DNA from: a virus
Reading direction: 5' to 3' (one strand)
IMG/VR virus record: IMGVR_UViG_3300037460_000319
Location: 1-33,780 of that record
DNA length: 33,780 bases
Below the pieces are notes generated by a model that was not told where the DNA came from, did no database searches, and worked only from the letters and a program-made list of their open reading frames with translations. Of this stretch, positions 17,698 to 27,876 are shown piece after piece. The first letter of the stretch is position 1. Each line of letters opens with the position of its first letter. The translations under genes and the position numbers were made by a program.

Positions 17698-18231
17698 TTG
17701 CTCCTGTCTGGGTCGGTTCTGTTGTGGGGTGTAGTAGGGGTTCCCAGGCTGCACCACTTCGGCATCCTCCCAAGCCCACCAACCGTAGGGGCGCTTGCAT
17801 AACCCTTTAAGGCCCAATAATCGGCGGTCGGCGACGGTAATGTCTTGCACGCACAGCCTTCCTTTGCTGTCGCGGCGCACCAACATGTACATGTAGCGAT
17901 GCCATAGAAAATGTTCGTTACGCTCTGAGCGTGAAACCTTCAGCAGATCGCATTCACGTATCCTCCGGTCGTTTGAATCGTAGAAGTGGTATTCTCTAGC
18001 CACGTCGGCCAACGGGCGTAACGCTAGACCGTTGTACCCCTTGAAAAGACGTCGAAAAGTGGTACTGCCTACCTCATGATGGCACCCACCCCGGTCCGCG
18101 TCCCACTTCCCGAAGGCAGCATATAGGTCTTTGGAGGTGACGGTGCTCTCACCCTCCGAAACAACGCACGCTTCACGAATGAAGCCGTTGATGAGGGTTT
18201 CTATTTCACGCTGTTCATCTAAATTGTTCAT
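17695..18231 (-). CDS. D5-like C-terminal winged-helix domain protein
   Basis: 178 residues from ATG 18231, overlapping the primase-helicase stop by 4 bp. Residues 10-70 (INGFIREACVVSEG, SKDLYAAFGKWDADRGG, STTFRRLFKG) follow the pattern of the winged-helix domain at the C-terminus of D5-type phage and plasmid primases (F..E.C, LY.AY..W, T...F...L). The primase itself retains a similar segment (VLAAYQKWCRENN), so this is a separate second copy, not a simple split. The C-terminal half is basic and Trp/Tyr-rich. It probably contacts DNA or the primase at the origin. Confidence 0.68.
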   Translation of the reverse strand: MNNLDEQREIETLINGFIREACVVSEGESTVTSKDLYAAFGKWDADRGGCHHEVGSTTFRRLFKGYNGLALRPLADVAREYHFYDSNDRRIRECDLLKVSRSERNEHFLWHRYMYMLVRRDSKGRLCVQDITVADRRLLGLKGLCKRPYGWWAWEDAEVVQPGNPYYTPQQNRPRQEQ

Positions 18232-20759
18232 TTTGTCACCGCCGTTAGGTGGGGTTGAAAGGCGCCTTGTGTGGCTGACGGTACGGTCTCGACGTCGGGG
18301 ATAAGCCTTATCCCCTTGTAGCCTGACGTCGTGGGGTGCCCGTCGACTCTGACTGACTTGGCGACTTTGACCTCGGCACCGTCAATCGAGGGGAAAAGTT
18401 TCTTAAAATCGATTATGAAGTCGCTTTTAGTCTTCTGCCGCACGTTATTTTCACGACACCACTTTTGGTATGCGGCCAACACGTCGATGCTTCTACACTT
18501 ACCCTTCGGGTCCACTACGAAGTACTCCTCCAGGAACCCAAGCATAGGCCGGTTGGCGGTTTTCAGTTCCTCAATTGCCTCCGCTGAGGTAGGCGGGAAA
18601 GTGAAACGGCCGCTGTTGACTAAAAGCCTTCGCGCGCCCTCTACAGCCCACGCGGTGATCCCCGCTACCTCAGCGAGCAGCTTCTGTAACAACCCCCTAT
18701 CTTGCTGCTCTTCGGTGAACTCGCGAGTGAATTTGAGGATCATGAATCGGTTAGCACTCGCCCCGGAGCTGTCTCGCATAGTGGGTATAGAGTTGCAGGC
18801 CATGAGGACCTTGGCATCAAGGCGGCCGCCCCACGTTTTTTGAGTGTGCAATAGCTGGATGCTCACCCGTTCGTTAGATGACGCTTTGTTTAAAAATGCC
18901 AAGGCTTGCGTGGCATCTTGACGCGAAGGGGGTTTAGCTTCTAGGTCAAGCATTATGCGAGAGTGCCGGAAGCTGCTTTGTGTTTTGCCGTCGGCTAGAT
19001 TGCTGAATGTGAAATCCCCACAAGCGTGCGGACCTAGTATCTCGGTTAGAACTTCAAGCGCAACACCCTTCCCAGCCCGGCTGGCTCCCTCAAGTGCGAT
19101 GACTTTGTGGAGGTTCAGCAGATCGGTGAACAGGCAGTACCCGAAGATTTCCTGTAGTAACTCGCGTCGCTCCACATCGTTGAATATGCTCTCTAGAAAC
19201 GCGTCCCACTGTGGGCATTTGGAGGCAGGGCTGTACTCTACCTGCAGGGTATCTAGGTTGAGGTTCTCTTTGTTGTGCGCTACCAGGTGCGGGCCGCCGT
19301 TAAGGTCAAGCACGCCGTTGAGGAAATATACTCGTTTATCGAGGGGGGGCAGGGTGAGCTTGTCCGCCGCCATATAGAGTGTTTTCTGCGTGCCCGCTAT
19401 GTTGCCCACGGTGGCCTTGAGAGGCTCCAAAGCTTGTAAGGTCGCAGTTTCAAACCATTCCGGGTCTAGCTCCTCCCAGTGTTGGCCGTTCCACCATCGT
19501 AAGTCGCCCCTGAAGCCTTTTAGTCTGGACGGGGTAAAGACCTCATTGAGCATCAATCTGGCGTTACCGCCGTGGGACGTGGTGGGGCGCGATAACGCCT
19601 TCATGGGGATATCTGCCACGGCCATGAGTTCTTCAGAGAATACGGCCGGTTGTCCTTCAGGCTTGGCGCTGGCCGGGGTTAAAGCGTTACGGACCATGTC
19701 CAGCAGCCCCTTGCTCTTAAACTCGGCGCCTTTCATCCCACTGAGCAGTTGGTCACACAGGAGGGCGTTTTGGAGGGCGTTACACCTCGATGAACGTATC
19801 TCATCAATTACGGCGGGTATTTGCTCCGGGTCGCTGCCGCTCTCGTTTATTCGGGTGATCAGACCGACGTACACATCACCAGGTGCGGCCTGGGGGCCGA
19901 ATGCTGCAGCCGTATCAAACCCGGACGGCAGCTTGTAGCCCTTCGTCATGGCCTCGCCGAATACGCTGGCGATGGTGCGCGTTGCACCTGTGCCGGGTTC
20001 GGCTTTAAGGCTGTTCCATTGTTGTTCCACTGTGGTGTAGTCAAGCAGACCGGGGGCGCTCTCTGACCATTCAACCCACAGCGCATAGCCTACGTCGGGG
20101 GTGTCGTGGAAGTGGTGGCGGAGAGACATACCCATGTTGATCCACTCCCCACGTGTACAGTCGGAGCTTATGAACGTTAGGGCTTGGCGCACGTCGTCGA
20201 CGTTTCGGTCTCCGACTGGGAGGTCTACGGGGTCGGCTGTAACGGTGACGGCTTCCAGTACTGAGCGGCAGGCGTCAGGGAGCTTCGGCAACAGCCCCAC
20301 GGGGTTCATCAGACGGAACACGCCGCCGTTTTTCTGGGGGTAGGCTGAGCCCGTGCAGATGTAGCCTTTACCGGCTGACCGGGTATCGAATCCTTCCAGC
20401 CCTTTGTGGTTGCTGTCTTGCTTCACCGACCAGTCGGGGGCCTGGAAGGCGTAGTGTTCCCCCCTACCGTCTTTGTTTCCCGGGGTGAACTGAACCAGGG
20501 CCGCGTCCCACGGTAGAGCACAACCGAGGAGTTGCTCAACGGCTTCGCGGGTTGCGCCTTTGTAGGCGTCCAGATCGATGACGGTGACGCCTTCGGGGAT
20601 CGGCACTCCGATGTACTCAGAAGGCCAATGCAATGACTCGGGTGGTTGCTGTGCGACTGCTCGCCAGTTCTCCCCCTCTTTAACGGCCGGTTTCTTGTTG
20701 GCTCTACACGGGAATACTGGTATGCCTGCGCCGGATAACTGGTGAGCTAACTCATTCAT
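18228..20759 (-). CDS. Primase-polymerase / SF3 helicase (D5/P4-type)
   Basis: 843 residues from ATG 20759. The N-terminal PrimPol domain shows VIDLD (Asp62, Asp64), GRGEHYAF (His102) and LEGFDTRSAGKGYICTGS (Asp125). A PriCT-like helical segment follows (about 185-265, ECWIN-type: TRGEWINMGMSLRHHF). The C-terminal superfamily 3 helicase has Walker A EGASRAGKG (about 557-565), then SRIMLDLEAKPPSR as Walker B region and LMACNSIPTMRDSSGA as motif C, ending in a winged-helix part. This is the usual length of phage primase-helicases. It would open and prime the origin predicted at 20996-21258, immediately upstream of its operon, and lay primers for the family A polymerase. Confidence 0.93.
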   Translation of the reverse strand: MNELAHQLSGAGIPVFPCRANKKPAVKEGENWRAVAQQPPESLHWPSEYIGVPIPEGVTVIDLDAYKGATREAVEQLLGCALPWDAALVQFTPGNKDGRGEHYAFQAPDWSVKQDSNHKGLEGFDTRSAGKGYICTGSAYPQKNGGVFRLMNPVGLLPKLPDACRSVLEAVTVTADPVDLPVGDRNVDDVRQALTFISSDCTRGEWINMGMSLRHHFHDTPDVGYALWVEWSESAPGLLDYTTVEQQWNSLKAEPGTGATRTIASVFGEAMTKGYKLPSGFDTAAAFGPQAAPGDVYVGLITRINESGSDPEQIPAVIDEIRSSRCNALQNALLCDQLLSGMKGAEFKSKGLLDMVRNALTPASAKPEGQPAVFSEELMAVADIPMKALSRPTTSHGGNARLMLNEVFTPSRLKGFRGDLRWWNGQHWEELDPEWFETATLQALEPLKATVGNIAGTQKTLYMAADKLTLPPLDKRVYFLNGVLDLNGGPHLVAHNKENLNLDTLQVEYSPASKCPQWDAFLESIFNDVERRELLQEIFGYCLFTDLLNLHKVIALEGASRAGKGVALEVLTEILGPHACGDFTFSNLADGKTQSSFRHSRIMLDLEAKPPSRQDATQALAFLNKASSNERVSIQLLHTQKTWGGRLDAKVLMACNSIPTMRDSSGASANRFMILKFTREFTEEQQDRGLLQKLLAEVAGITAWAVEGARRLLVNSGRFTFPPTSAEAIEELKTANRPMLGFLEEYFVVDPKGKCRSIDVLAAYQKWCRENNVRQKTKSDFIIDFKKLFPSIDGAEVKVAKSVRVDGHPTTSGYKGIRLIPDVETVPSATQGAFQPHLTAVTK

Positions 20760-20931: not shown

Positions 20932-20965
20932 GGTTTCAACCTTCGGGTTAGGGTGGATAAGAAGG

Positions 20966-20994
20966 ATACTAGCCGTAGCACAACACCCTGTCAA
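20966..20994 (-). promoter_or_regulatory. Sigma70-type promoter of the primase operon (P4)
   Basis: Read leftward: TTGACA (20989-20994), 17-bp spacer, TAGTAT (20966-20971). The bases just upstream of the -10 are ACGGC, as in the promoters at 3907 and 29480. The -35 abuts the inverted repeat at 20996, so a protein filling the iterons would interfere with it. Confidence 0.83.
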
Positions 20995-20995
20995 C

Positions 20996-21258
20996 CCCTA
21001 AAAACAAACTACAAACCGAACTACAAAATTTCTAGCCGATGTAGTTTGTAGTTTTAGTGTAGTTCTGTTTTTAGGGCTAAAACTACATCTGAAACCCATC
21101 AACCGTGCGGCCTCAGAGCCTTTTGTAGTTTTGTAGTTTGTTTTTACAGTTAGTTATATATAAAGATATATAGAGGGTATATAGGTAGTAGGTATAGGGT
21201 AAGTACGGGGGTAAAAAGAGTATAGAGCTAATATAAGGAAACGGAACTACAAACTACA
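20996..21258. other. Predicted replication origin with iterons and AT-rich tract
   Basis: Ten copies of AACTACA or its complement: plus-strand reading at 21007, 21019, 21081, 21245 and 21252; minus-strand (TGTAGTT) at 21040, 21047, 21058, 21124 and 21132. Several are tandem at 7-8 bp. An inverted repeat, CCCTAAAAACAAACTACA (20996-21013) against TGTAGTTCTGTTTTTAGGG (21058-21076), matches over 18 bp with one extra base. Between the two iteron groups, 21141-21240 is AT-rich with runs such as TTATATATAAAGATATATAG, fitting a DNA unwinding element. It lies in the gap between the primase operon and the terminase gene, as origins often do. No gene fits in this 346-bp gap. Confidence 0.8.
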
Positions 21259-21340: not shown

Positions 21341-21919
21341 ATGGGCGTAATGCGCTTCACACCAAAGATGCAAGCAGCGTTAGGCCACTACGCCAATGAC
21401 CCCACTCGCAACAAAGAGGCGGCGTATCGGGTCGGCTATAACTGCGCCAACATGCAAGACCACGTCGTACAGGTAAAATCCGCTGAGCTGTTCAAGCACC
21501 CCCTCATGGCCGAGGCTCTCAAGCAGATGAAATCGTTAGCCATGGAGAAGACGGCAATCGATGCGGCGTGGGTGCTTGAACGGGCGGCTAAGGTGGCGGA
21601 CTTCAACGTCACCAAGTTCATCACCGCCGATCCAGAGACAGGCGAGCGCTACTTCGACTTCGACAAGGCAACAGAAGACGATTGGTACTGCCTCACCATG
21701 CTAGGGCAGCACACGGTAGGCTTGGGCCTCAAAAAGCGTTACGCACTCAGCGAGATCGTAATCAAGCCTGGGCATCAACTGAAAGCGTTGGCGATGGTAG
21801 GCGACAGTACAAACGTCCAGGCGTTCCAAAAGAACGTAGCCCTGAGTGGGCGGGACGGCGGCCCAGTCGTCACCCGTACGCTGAACGACTTCTACGGCGA
21901 CGAGAGTGGCGAGACTTAA
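21341..21919 (+). CDS. terS: Terminase small subunit
   Basis: 192 residues from ATG 21341; ATG 21350 is also possible. The N-terminal MRFTPKMQAALGHYANDPTR and KEAAYRVGYN form the DNA-binding HTH-like region typical of the Terminase_2 type (many end with GY/GYS in the second helix). A central helical oligomerisation part (MKSLAMEKTAIDAAWVLERA) and a C-terminal tail follow. Small subunits recognise the packaging site and load the large subunit, whose gene overlaps by 14 bp. The predicted origin lies just upstream, so the packaging site could be in the same gap or within this gene. Confidence 0.85.
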   Translation: MGVMRFTPKMQAALGHYANDPTRNKEAAYRVGYNCANMQDHVVQVKSAELFKHPLMAEALKQMKSLAMEKTAIDAAWVLERAAKVADFNVTKFITADPETGERYFDFDKATEDDWYCLTMLGQHTVGLGLKKRYALSEIVIKPGHQLKALAMVGDSTNVQAFQKNVALSGRDGGPVVTRTLNDFYGDESGET

Positions 21920-23303
21920 CCCCGCACTACGTGAGTTCTGGCGAACCAAAGCCGACGTTAAAATACTCAAGGGGGGGCGCTCCTCATCCAAGACGTGGGA
22001 TACGGCAGGCTTTGCCGTCTACCTGGCATCCAACTACACGTTGAAATTCCTGTGCATGCGGATGTTCCAGAACAAAATAGCTGAGTCCGTCTACGCGGTA
22101 ATCGTGATACAGATCAAACGCTTCGGCATGGAGGACGACTTCGAGATCCTCCGCAACGTCATACGCCACAAGCGTACCGGCTCAGAGTTCCATTTCTACG
22201 GCATCCAGCGCAATATCCGAGAGATCAAAGGCTTCGAGGGCGCCGACATTGGGTGGATCGAAGAGGGCGAGAGCCTGACCAAAGAGCAGTGGGGCATCAT
22301 CGAACCGACGTTACGCAAGGAAGGCTCTGAGGCGTGGATACTCTACAACCCGCACCTAGTGTCTGATTTCATCGAAACGTTCACTGACGACCCCAAAAAC
22401 GGCGTCATAGTCCGTCACATCAACTACGACGAGAACCCGTTCATCTCTAGCACGATGCTGCGCAAGATCGAGCGCATGAAGGCGGCAGACTACGACGAGT
22501 ACGAGCACATCTACGAAGGCGTGCCGCGTACCGATGACGACCGCGTCATAATCAAGCGTTCATGGATCGAAGCGGCCATAGATGCGCACATAAAACTCGG
22601 TATCGAACCGTCCGGCCCTAGGCGTATGGGCTTTGATATCGCTGACGACGGGGCGGACCTTAACGCCGTAGTCTATGCGCACGGAATCGTCGCGCTGTGG
22701 GGCGAGAACTGGAAAGGCGGCGAGGATAAGCTTCTACAGAGCTGCACCCGAACGTACAACAGAGCCCTAGAGTACGGCGCACATGTGAACTATGACTCTA
22801 TCGGCGTTGGGGCGTTGGCTGGTTCCAAATTCCAAGAGGTGAACGAAGAGCGAGCCGAGAAAGGCATGCCGGGAAAGGTTAAATACTCTAAGTTTGTGGC
22901 AGGCGCTAAAGTCACCGACCCTGACGGCCTTTACGTGAGCGACGAACACGACAGGATCACTAATCACGACTTCTTCAGCAACCTGAAGGCCCAAGCATGG
23001 TGGACGGTGGCGGACCGGTTCCGCAACACCTACAACGCCATTAATGACGTGGAACGACGCCCTGATGATGAGCTGATAAGCATTAGCTCCGACATGCCGG
23101 GACTCGCCAACCTGATCACACAGTTATCGACACCCCGCAGGCACTTTGACAAGATCGGCAGGGTTAAAGTCGAATCGAAGGAGGACCTGGCCAAGCGGGA
23201 GGTGAAGTCACCAAACGATGCGGACGCGTTCATCATGGTGTATGCTCCAGTAGAGGCCAACCATCTTGAAGAACTTCTCAAACTAGCATTGGGGCAGACA
23301 TAA
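21906..23303 (+). CDS. terL: Terminase large subunit (PBSX/Terminase_3 type)
   Basis: 465 residues from GTG 21906. The ATPase has Walker A GGRSSSKT (residues 23-30) and Walker B GWIEEGE (116-122). The RNase H-like nuclease begins with MGFDIADDGADLNAVVYAHG (Asp244) and closes with NDADAFIMVYAP, supplying the last acidic residues. The length is standard for the PBSX-like group, which pumps DNA into the prohead and cuts it. It is followed at once by a small unknown gene and not by the portal, which is displaced about 3.2 kb downstream. Confidence 0.95.
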   Translation: MARLNPALREFWRTKADVKILKGGRSSSKTWDTAGFAVYLASNYTLKFLCMRMFQNKIAESVYAVIVIQIKRFGMEDDFEILRNVIRHKRTGSEFHFYGIQRNIREIKGFEGADIGWIEEGESLTKEQWGIIEPTLRKEGSEAWILYNPHLVSDFIETFTDDPKNGVIVRHINYDENPFISSTMLRKIERMKAADYDEYEHIYEGVPRTDDDRVIIKRSWIEAAIDAHIKLGIEPSGPRRMGFDIADDGADLNAVVYAHGIVALWGENWKGGEDKLLQSCTRTYNRALEYGAHVNYDSIGVGALAGSKFQEVNEERAEKGMPGKVKYSKFVAGAKVTDPDGLYVSDEHDRITNHDFFSNLKAQAWWTVADRFRNTYNAINDVERRPDDELISISSDMPGLANLITQLSTPRRHFDKIGRVKVESKEDLAKREVKSPNDADAFIMVYAPVEANHLEELLKLALGQT

Positions 23304-26508: not shown

Positions 26509-27876
26509 ATGAGCGATAAAACATACACAGGGCCAGAGGTCGCCGAGCTGATCAACAAGGTACTAGCCACCAATGCAGCTGACCCCGCCTATGCGGTGCG
26601 CCAGCGCATGGCAGCGCAGATCAGCGGCGGCTATGACTGCGGCGACACCTTGCACAACATCTACCTCGATTACGGTTACCCCGCCACCCTGGACTTCTTC
26701 AATTTTTGGAACATGTACCGCCGGTTTGGGCTTGCTACTCGTGTTGTGGAGCTGTATCCCGATCAAACGTGGCTTGATGATCCTGAGGTTGAAGGCGACA
26801 CCCGTTTCAACAGCGAGCTAGAGAAACTAGAGAAGCGCCTCGGCCTATGGCGTCAAGCTAAAGCCCTTGACACGTACCAACGGGTAGGCCGATACGCCGG
26901 GCTGTTCATGCGCGTGCGTGACAACAAGAAGCCCAACGAACCGCTTGAGGGCGTGCTGCCGAGTGCTGACAGCCTTATGGGCATGATGCCGATATATGAA
27001 GGGCAGCTCAAAGTGTTGGAGGTGGACAACGACCCTATGTCAGACACCTTCAGTCAACCTAAAATGTACCAGTTCGACGAGGGGGCGACAGGCAGCCGGA
27101 ATGAGCTATCATCGTCATCGTTCAGCATACACCCGAGCCGCCTTATCATAGCCGCCGAAGGGGCGAACAGTGGCAGTATCTATGGCATACCGGTGTTAGA
27201 GAGCATCTACAATTCATTGATGGACTTGCGCAAGATCTTCGGCGGTGGTGGCGAAGGCTTCTATAGGAACGCCGCCCAGAGCACCGTATTTGACATCAAA
27301 GACGCTGCTAGTGTGAGCCAGAATAAGGCCCTACTAGAGGAGTTTAACGAGCAAGCCGACGACTTTCTACAGAACCGTATGCGTAGGTCGATGATGACCC
27401 CAGGCATGGAGGTCACCGCGTTACAATCCAACCTGATCAACCCTAAAGATTTCGCGCTTAACTCACTAATGGACGTCACGTCCGGTGCGAAAACGCCGAT
27501 AATGCTACTAGTGGGCAACCAGACCGGCCGCCTTGCGGGTGACCAAGACAACAAGAGCTTTCTTACCCAAGTGAACGCACGGCGCAAGGGCTTTGGCACT
27601 GAGATCGTCACGTCTATGGTCGACTGGTGCGTGCGGTACGGTGTGCTGCCCGCATCTGAGTATGAGGTCGAATGGCCTGACGCCATGGCACCGTCTGACA
27701 CTGAGAAGCTGACCGACGCGAGCAGCATGGCCACGATCAACAAGACTCAATACGAATCGGGCGGAGAGATACCGTTCAGTGGTGAAGAGATCCGCGAACA
27801 GGCGGGCTATAAACCTAACAAAACACTGGAGCTGCCACCTGATGAGAGCCTGGGTGACGATAACTTGCAGCCCTGA
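26509..27876 (+). CDS. Portal protein (DUF1073 type)
   Basis: 455 residues from ATG 26509. The body matches DUF1073-type portals: LHNIYLDYGYPATLDFFNFW, then MYRRFGLATRVVELYPDQTW with DDPEVEG, ALDTYQRVGRYAGLFMRV, HPSRLIIAAEG, YGIPVLESIYNSLMDL, and the C-terminal QTGRLAGDQDNKSF tunnel-loop neighbourhood. It would form the 12-subunit ring at the capsid vertex through which DNA passes and to which terminase docks. Size is normal for the family. The next gene lies 48 bp downstream. Confidence 0.88.
   Translation: MSDKTYTGPEVAELINKVLATNAADPAYAVRQRMAAQISGGYDCGDTLHNIYLDYGYPATLDFFNFWNMYRRFGLATRVVELYPDQTWLDDPEVEGDTRFNSELEKLEKRLGLWRQAKALDTYQRVGRYAGLFMRVRDNKKPNEPLEGVLPSADSLMGMMPIYEGQLKVLEVDNDPMSDTFSQPKMYQFDEGATGSRNELSSSSFSIHPSRLIIAAEGANSGSIYGIPVLESIYNSLMDLRKIFGGGGEGFYRNAAQSTVFDIKDAASVSQNKALLEEFNEQADDFLQNRMRRSMMTPGMEVTALQSNLINPKDFALNSLMDVTSGAKTPIMLLVGNQTGRLAGDQDNKSFLTQVNARRKGFGTEIVTSMVDWCVRYGVLPASEYEVEWPDAMAPSDTEKLTDASSMATINKTQYESGGEIPFSGEEIREQAGYKPNKTLELPPDESLGDDNLQP

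Follow-up and report, generated by a model that had tools for sequence, protein, structure and literature searches.

We identified a predicted replication origin at positions 21007–21258 of a 33.8-kb virus record (IMGVR_UViG_3300037460_000319, analysed over its full 33,780 nucleotides and hereafter called the window). It is very probable that this region serves as an origin resembling those of P4 and of the PICI/SaPI islands, and that the phage primase-helicase is bound to it via a C-terminal winged helix. An original prediction, made from the DNA letters, had proposed a phage replication origin here, and the idea is supported: the iteron array accompanies the primase-helicase in most relatives, its geometry outlasts its letters, the order, orientation and spacing of its iterons are those of the P4 ori, and the iteron word covaries with the helicase/C-terminal half of the protein. 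These sequence features suggest that initiator binding, melting, initiation and autoregulation could all take place at the array. To our knowledge, no origin has been located in a tailed phage whose PrimPol-D5 primase is of the type found in the window.

An iteron array in the gap between the primase operon and the terminase genes

The array occupies a divergent gap between a leftward operon, encoding a small helix-turn-helix (HTH) protein and the primase-helicase, and the rightward terminase genes terS and terL, which start at 21341 (Table 1). It consists of ten exact copies of AACTACA/TGTAGTT, at 21007, 21019, 21081, 21245 and 21252 on the plus strand and at 21040, 21047, 21058, 21124 and 21132 on the minus strand. 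No other 7-mer forms so dense a cluster in the window, which holds 14 copies of the word in total compared with 3.9 expected. When the gap was shuffled by dinucleotides 2000 times, no 7-mer exceeded five copies, and the maximum was likewise five in 60 shuffles of the whole window; thus, the ten iterons that had been predicted are present beyond chance. A collection scan with the exact 16-mer AAACTACAAACTACAA matched 84 stretches.

The other elements that had been predicted were recovered as well. The inverted repeat is a perfect 11-mer within a longer, imperfect arm, and is joined by a larger inverted repeat, I2 (17 nt, 100%, 20999–21015/21130–21146). The promoter of the operon comprises a -35 element, TTGACA (20994–20989), and a -10 element, TAGTAT (20971–20966), separated by a 17-bp spacer, with 1 bp between the end of the -35 element and the inverted repeat, as had been described. 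The claimed AT-rich tract of about 100 bp does lie between the iteron groups, but is only moderately AT-rich, at 68% compared with 46% for the window; in most relatives, the corresponding tract spans 83–118 bp and is 64–84% AT.

Table 1. Features of the predicted origin and neighbouring genes (positions in the window)
Feature	Position	Strand	Remarks
Sigma-70-like promoter of the HTH/primase operon, TTGACA-17-TAGTAT	20966..20994	-	10/12 matches
Inverted repeat CCCTAAAAACA / TGTTTTTAGGG	20996-21006 / 21066-21076		11 nt perfect, within a longer arm (19 nt, 74%)
Promoter-proximal iterons, two AACTACA (21007, 21019)	21007..21025	+	
Core iteron set	21040..21138		TGTAGTT 21132 and 21124 (pair), AACTACA 21081 (inverted), TGTAGTT 21058, 21047 and 21040; spacing 8-43-23-11-7
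AT-rich tract, presumed DNA unwinding element	21139..21244		106 bp, 68% AT
Distal inverted iteron pair AACTACA-AACTACA	21245..21258	+	Closes the AT-rich tract
Xis-like HTH_17 protein, 59 aa	20752..20931	-	GTG start
PrimPol / PriCT_2 / D5_N / SF3 helicase with P4-family primase C-terminal domain, 843 aa	18228..20759	-	Proposed initiator
C-terminal winged-helix domain of the primase-helicase (about residues 736-820)	18300..18554	-	Proposed iteron-binding domain
Small terminase subunit gene (terS)	21341..21919	+	
Large terminase subunit gene (terL)	21906..23303	+	

Elsewhere in the 33.8-kb record are genes for a family A polymerase, a helicase, a topoisomerase, an ssDNA-annealing protein, a portal and head proteins; an esterase/lipase-like protein (phrog_21992, 904–1677) is encoded near the left end. 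The sign of the AT skew flips at the gap, which we do not count in favour of an origin because divergent transcription alone could produce it. A DnaA-box-like sequence with one mismatch, TTATCCACC, closely follows the operon promoter (20952–20960); at this tolerance the window shows no excess of DnaA boxes (9, compared with 5.4 expected). The Rfam and tRNA scans yielded no family and no tRNA, and no match was obtained in a near-identity DNA search among phages or in a single-sequence search of viral contigs with the primase.

Iteron spacing is conserved among relatives with different iteron words

Most relatives of the primase-helicase, in phages of Vibrio, Aeromonas, Alteromonas and Oceanospirillum and in about 20 metagenomic phages, are accompanied by an array in the equivalent gap, mostly built from a different word (TGTAGTC, TGTAGTA, TGTTGTA, TGTGACG, TGTGACA, TGTAACG, TGTAACA, TGTACCG, TGTGGC or GTGGTC). 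According to the original prediction, an origin would be refuted if relatives with the same primase lacked the repeats. The literal word is indeed missing from most of them; the positions, in contrast, are occupied by another word.

Read from the AT-rich tract toward the operon, the window array starts with a pair 8 bp apart, followed by 43 bp to an inverted iteron and then by intervals of 23, 11 and 7 bp. The spacing is 8-43-23-11-9 both in Vibrio 97.13, which keeps the word TTGTAGTT with a helicase 52% identical to that of the window, and in Vibrio 367.14, where the word is TGTTGTC and most copies carry one mismatch. In PD0307 it is 8-43-24-11, in the TGTAACG group 8-44 followed by 11-12, and in L346, with the word GTGGTC, 9-43-12-12. 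The common layout is a pair at 8–10 bp, 43–45 bp to the next iteron and intervals of 22–24 and 11 bp; the other flank is formed by the AT-rich tract and a distal pair in inverted orientation. Among the strong arrays, with words chosen automatically, a pair followed by 42–45 bp occurs in 12 of 16. Shuffling the gaps and orientations within each array gives an expectation of 5.7 (p = 0.0003), and placing the iterons at random gives 2.7. The AeroV_348 type (L168/L227) has a small array devoid of the 43-bp element, and inspection of the gap revealed no clear array in L232, L233 and L240. The array of L346, the phage with the closest polymerase, includes about nine GGTTA units in succession between iterons (about 1040–1100).

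CKB-S1 and VP16T use the words TTGTGCCC and TTGTGCAC, respectively, and in both the helicase half of the protein is of another type. These loci (L170 and L174 for CKB-S1 and VP16) have the PrimPol half in common, combined with the other type of helicase half and a different word, an apparent domain swap. In VP16T (orf63T, L174), VP16C (orf60C) and PY6, the primase-helicase carries the annotation ‘putative integrase’.

The array is associated with the primase-helicase, not with the packaging genes

Given that terS begins 82 bp beyond the last iteron, and that arrays are found near packaging genes in several relatives and in BPP-1, the repeats could alternatively serve to bind the small terminase subunit, as a cosB or pac site. 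We regard this as very unlikely. In AeroV_348, CKB-S1, PD0307 and VP16T, an entire gene intervenes between the array and the end of the record or the first terminase gene. In Vibrio 97.13, where the word and the spacing are the same, homologues of the window TerS and TerL were not detectable. Conversely, among TerL relatives that are 57–74% identical but come without a window-type primase, an array of this kind ahead of terS is missing from most. Among the TerL relatives, L013 has the primase; L027 has an array of five TGTAGCA copies upstream of a terminase gene (1136–1376), on a contig that ends before any primase could appear. Thus, the array does not accompany the terminase genes across relatives as a cos or pac site should. 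TerS is likewise not supported as the iteron-binding protein, the terminase of Vibrio 97.13 being unrelated.

An attachment site, in which the iterons would be attP arm repeats acting with an excisionase, is suggested by the weak excisionase score of the HTH gene product and by the position of P4 xis next to the P4 ori. It appears extremely improbable, considering that no integrase was found among the scanned window proteins, that the gene annotated as an integrase in VP16T/C and PY6 is the primase, and that the attP arm repeats of P4 are distinct from its ori repeats.

The C-terminal winged helix of the primase-helicase is the likely iteron-binding domain

The primase-helicase belongs to TIGR01613 (147 bits, cut-off 108.7), and the helicase part of the full model matches the SaPI5 primase-helicase (7OLA, TM 0.64–0.72 on the target). 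Its C-terminal domain was modelled by AlphaFold with a winged-helix topology at moderate confidence (pLDDT 69); in Foldseek, the closest structures were RFX DNA-binding domains (prob 1.00), and the P4 origin-binding domain was also recovered (1KA8, prob 0.57, TM 0.53). In SaPIs, iterons are recognised by the C-terminal domain of Rep (PMC7581432); in P4, the alpha protein uses a winged helix to bind the repeats (PMC4234260).

We compared the divergence of the iteron words with that of the candidate binders using Mantel permutations, in which the phylogenetic non-independence of the relatives is handled only in part. In a non-redundant set of phages, with automatic words and strong arrays only, word distance was correlated with the distance between helicases (r = 0.46, p = 0.004) and between C-terminal domains (r = 0.46, p = 0.005), two signals that are inseparable from each other, and not with PrimPol distance (r = 0.00, p = 0.49) or HTH distance (r = -0.03, p = 0.55); the cut-off and word length of this run were set after the result of a first one was known. 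That first run, which was noisy because it took in weak arrays and one array outside the scanned stretch, gave r = 0.37 for the helicase, 0.34 for the C-terminal domain, 0.13 for PrimPol and 0.23 for the HTH (p = 0.024). Hand-anchored words gave 0.68, 0.66, 0.13 and 0.14, respectively.

The 59-residue HTH protein, which the original prediction had put forward as a ligand of the iterons, is not supported in this role, since HTH divergence does not follow the word and Vibrio 97.13, a complete genome with no detected HTH_17-like protein, keeps both word and spacing. The same observations bear on the possibility that the repeats are operators through which this or another regulator controls a divergent pair of early and late promoters, and do not act as an origin. 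The array does flank a good promoter, and an HTH_17 gene adjoins the primase gene in most relatives. However, the array is present in Vibrio 97.13 although no HTH_17-like protein was detected in its complete genome, loci L256 and L247 are also devoid of one, and phages with close HTH proteins have different words: L346 and the window share 62% identity in the HTH, 51% in PrimPol and 20% in the C-terminal domain, and their iteron words differ. An array of operators would, moreover, leave the geometry of the known P4 and PICI origins unexplained, and we consider this explanation very unlikely. Taken together, the sequence comparisons and the structural model indicate that the C-terminal winged helix of the primase-helicase is more likely than the HTH protein to bind the iterons.

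A possible mechanism of initiation

In the proposed origin, several copies of the primase-helicase (18228–20759) would bind the iterons via their C-terminal winged helices, and the fixed spacing, with a pair, about four helical turns to an inverted single iteron, then two turns and one turn, could position them for the assembly of SF3 helicase rings. The rings would melt the adjacent AT-rich tract, bounded distally by the inverted iteron pair, after which the PrimPol domain would prime synthesis and the family A polymerase of the phage would take over. With the array placed immediately ahead of the operon promoter, the bound initiator could potentially tune its own synthesis, and the Xis-like HTH_17 protein is likely to be a regulator of the operon rather than an iteron binder.

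Discussion

We find it reasonably likely that a single ruler, consisting of a pair, 43–48 bp, an inverted single iteron, 22–23 bp and 11 bp, is common to tailed phages, P4 and PICIs, and that the word drifts along with the helicase/winged-helix half of the initiator, giving rise to many mutually orthogonal initiator–origin pairs. In a search of the open-access literature, no report of a spacing match between tailed phages and P4 was found. Such a rule, independent of sequence, would enable the computational finding of origins of this kind and would connect phages with their parasitic satellites and islands, and the diverged initiator/iteron pairs could be used as a set for reading the specificity code of the winged helix.

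Compared with the annotated repeats of the P4 ori, all six core iterons agree in order, orientation and spacing (6/6), with intervals of 10-43-22-11-10 in P4, iterons of 7–8 bp, and a summed deviation of 6 bp. The probability of such a match by chance is 4.5e-5 under random placement (summed error of at most 6), 2.4e-4 at a tolerance of 3 and 6e-4 under gap permutation. Both copies of P4 crr also begin with a pair at 9 bp followed by 43 bp and an inverted iteron. Further likenesses are the location in a gap between a leftward operon with an Xis-like first gene and rightward late genes, and the P4-family helicase with a C-terminal winged helix. The iteron word of P4 is GGTGAACA, in contrast to TTGTAGTT in the window, its primase is of the TOPRIM type whereas the window protein has a Pfam Prim-Pol domain (PF09250), and its 43-bp spacer is 83% AT, compared with 44% in the window, where the AT-rich tract is found instead on the far side of the pair and ends at the distal inverted pair. 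This shift of the AT-rich DNA is the main structural difference. No second, crr-like iteron cluster was found in the 33.8-kb window, which may be incomplete, and outside the array AACTACA occurs in single copies only.

Among the PICIs, the rep-ori of Escherichia coli EcCICFT073 drives plasmid maintenance (PMC6092414). The GGTAGACA iterons of this island are spaced 9-46-22-11-9-31-11-22-46-9, forming two half-patterns that face each other, and the half-site 9-46-22-11-9, mirrored, resembles the window array. PICI/SaPI origins share with the window the two iteron sets flanking an AT-rich region, the joint encoding of Xis and the primase-helicase, and an initiator whose C-terminal domain is the expected iteron binder. 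They differ in that the origin lies 3' of rep, whereas the window array is 5' of the HTH–primase operon, and in that the distal set of the window is reduced to a pair; furthermore, the window, with its terminase, portal, head and own polymerase genes, represents a tailed phage and not an island. Our observations argue against the published uniqueness of the PICI origin layout as a general statement.

With pRN1 and the Bordetella phage BIP-1 (BPP-1), the window protein shares the domain order PrimPol–PriCT_2–SF3–winged helix, and in pRN1, too, the replication gene has a gene for a small repressor as its partner. The origin proposed for BIP-1 is a 3' stem-loop without iterons (PMC4234260), unlike the window iterons, which lie 5' of the gene. 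In BPP-1, which is near-identical to BIP-1, we observed an origin-like arrangement of a TTGCCTCG pair (9 bp), 78 bp and an inverted pair (9 bp), at 2608–2711 of locus L354 (NC_005357.1, about 26607–26710 of the record), between bbp27 and bbp28, which places it between the primase and the terS side. This iteron-like array, together with the window data, argues against the iteron-free proposal for BIP-1, and equally against the uniqueness of the PICI layout, as general statements.

To conclude, the predicted window origin is strictly a member of neither class: P4 differs by its TOPRIM primase and by crr, and PICI origins by their location 3' of rep. By analogy with these systems, it would represent a new combination, in which a tailed phage couples a PrimPol-D5 initiator to a predicted 5' origin that probably works like the origins of P4 and of PICI/SaPI islands.
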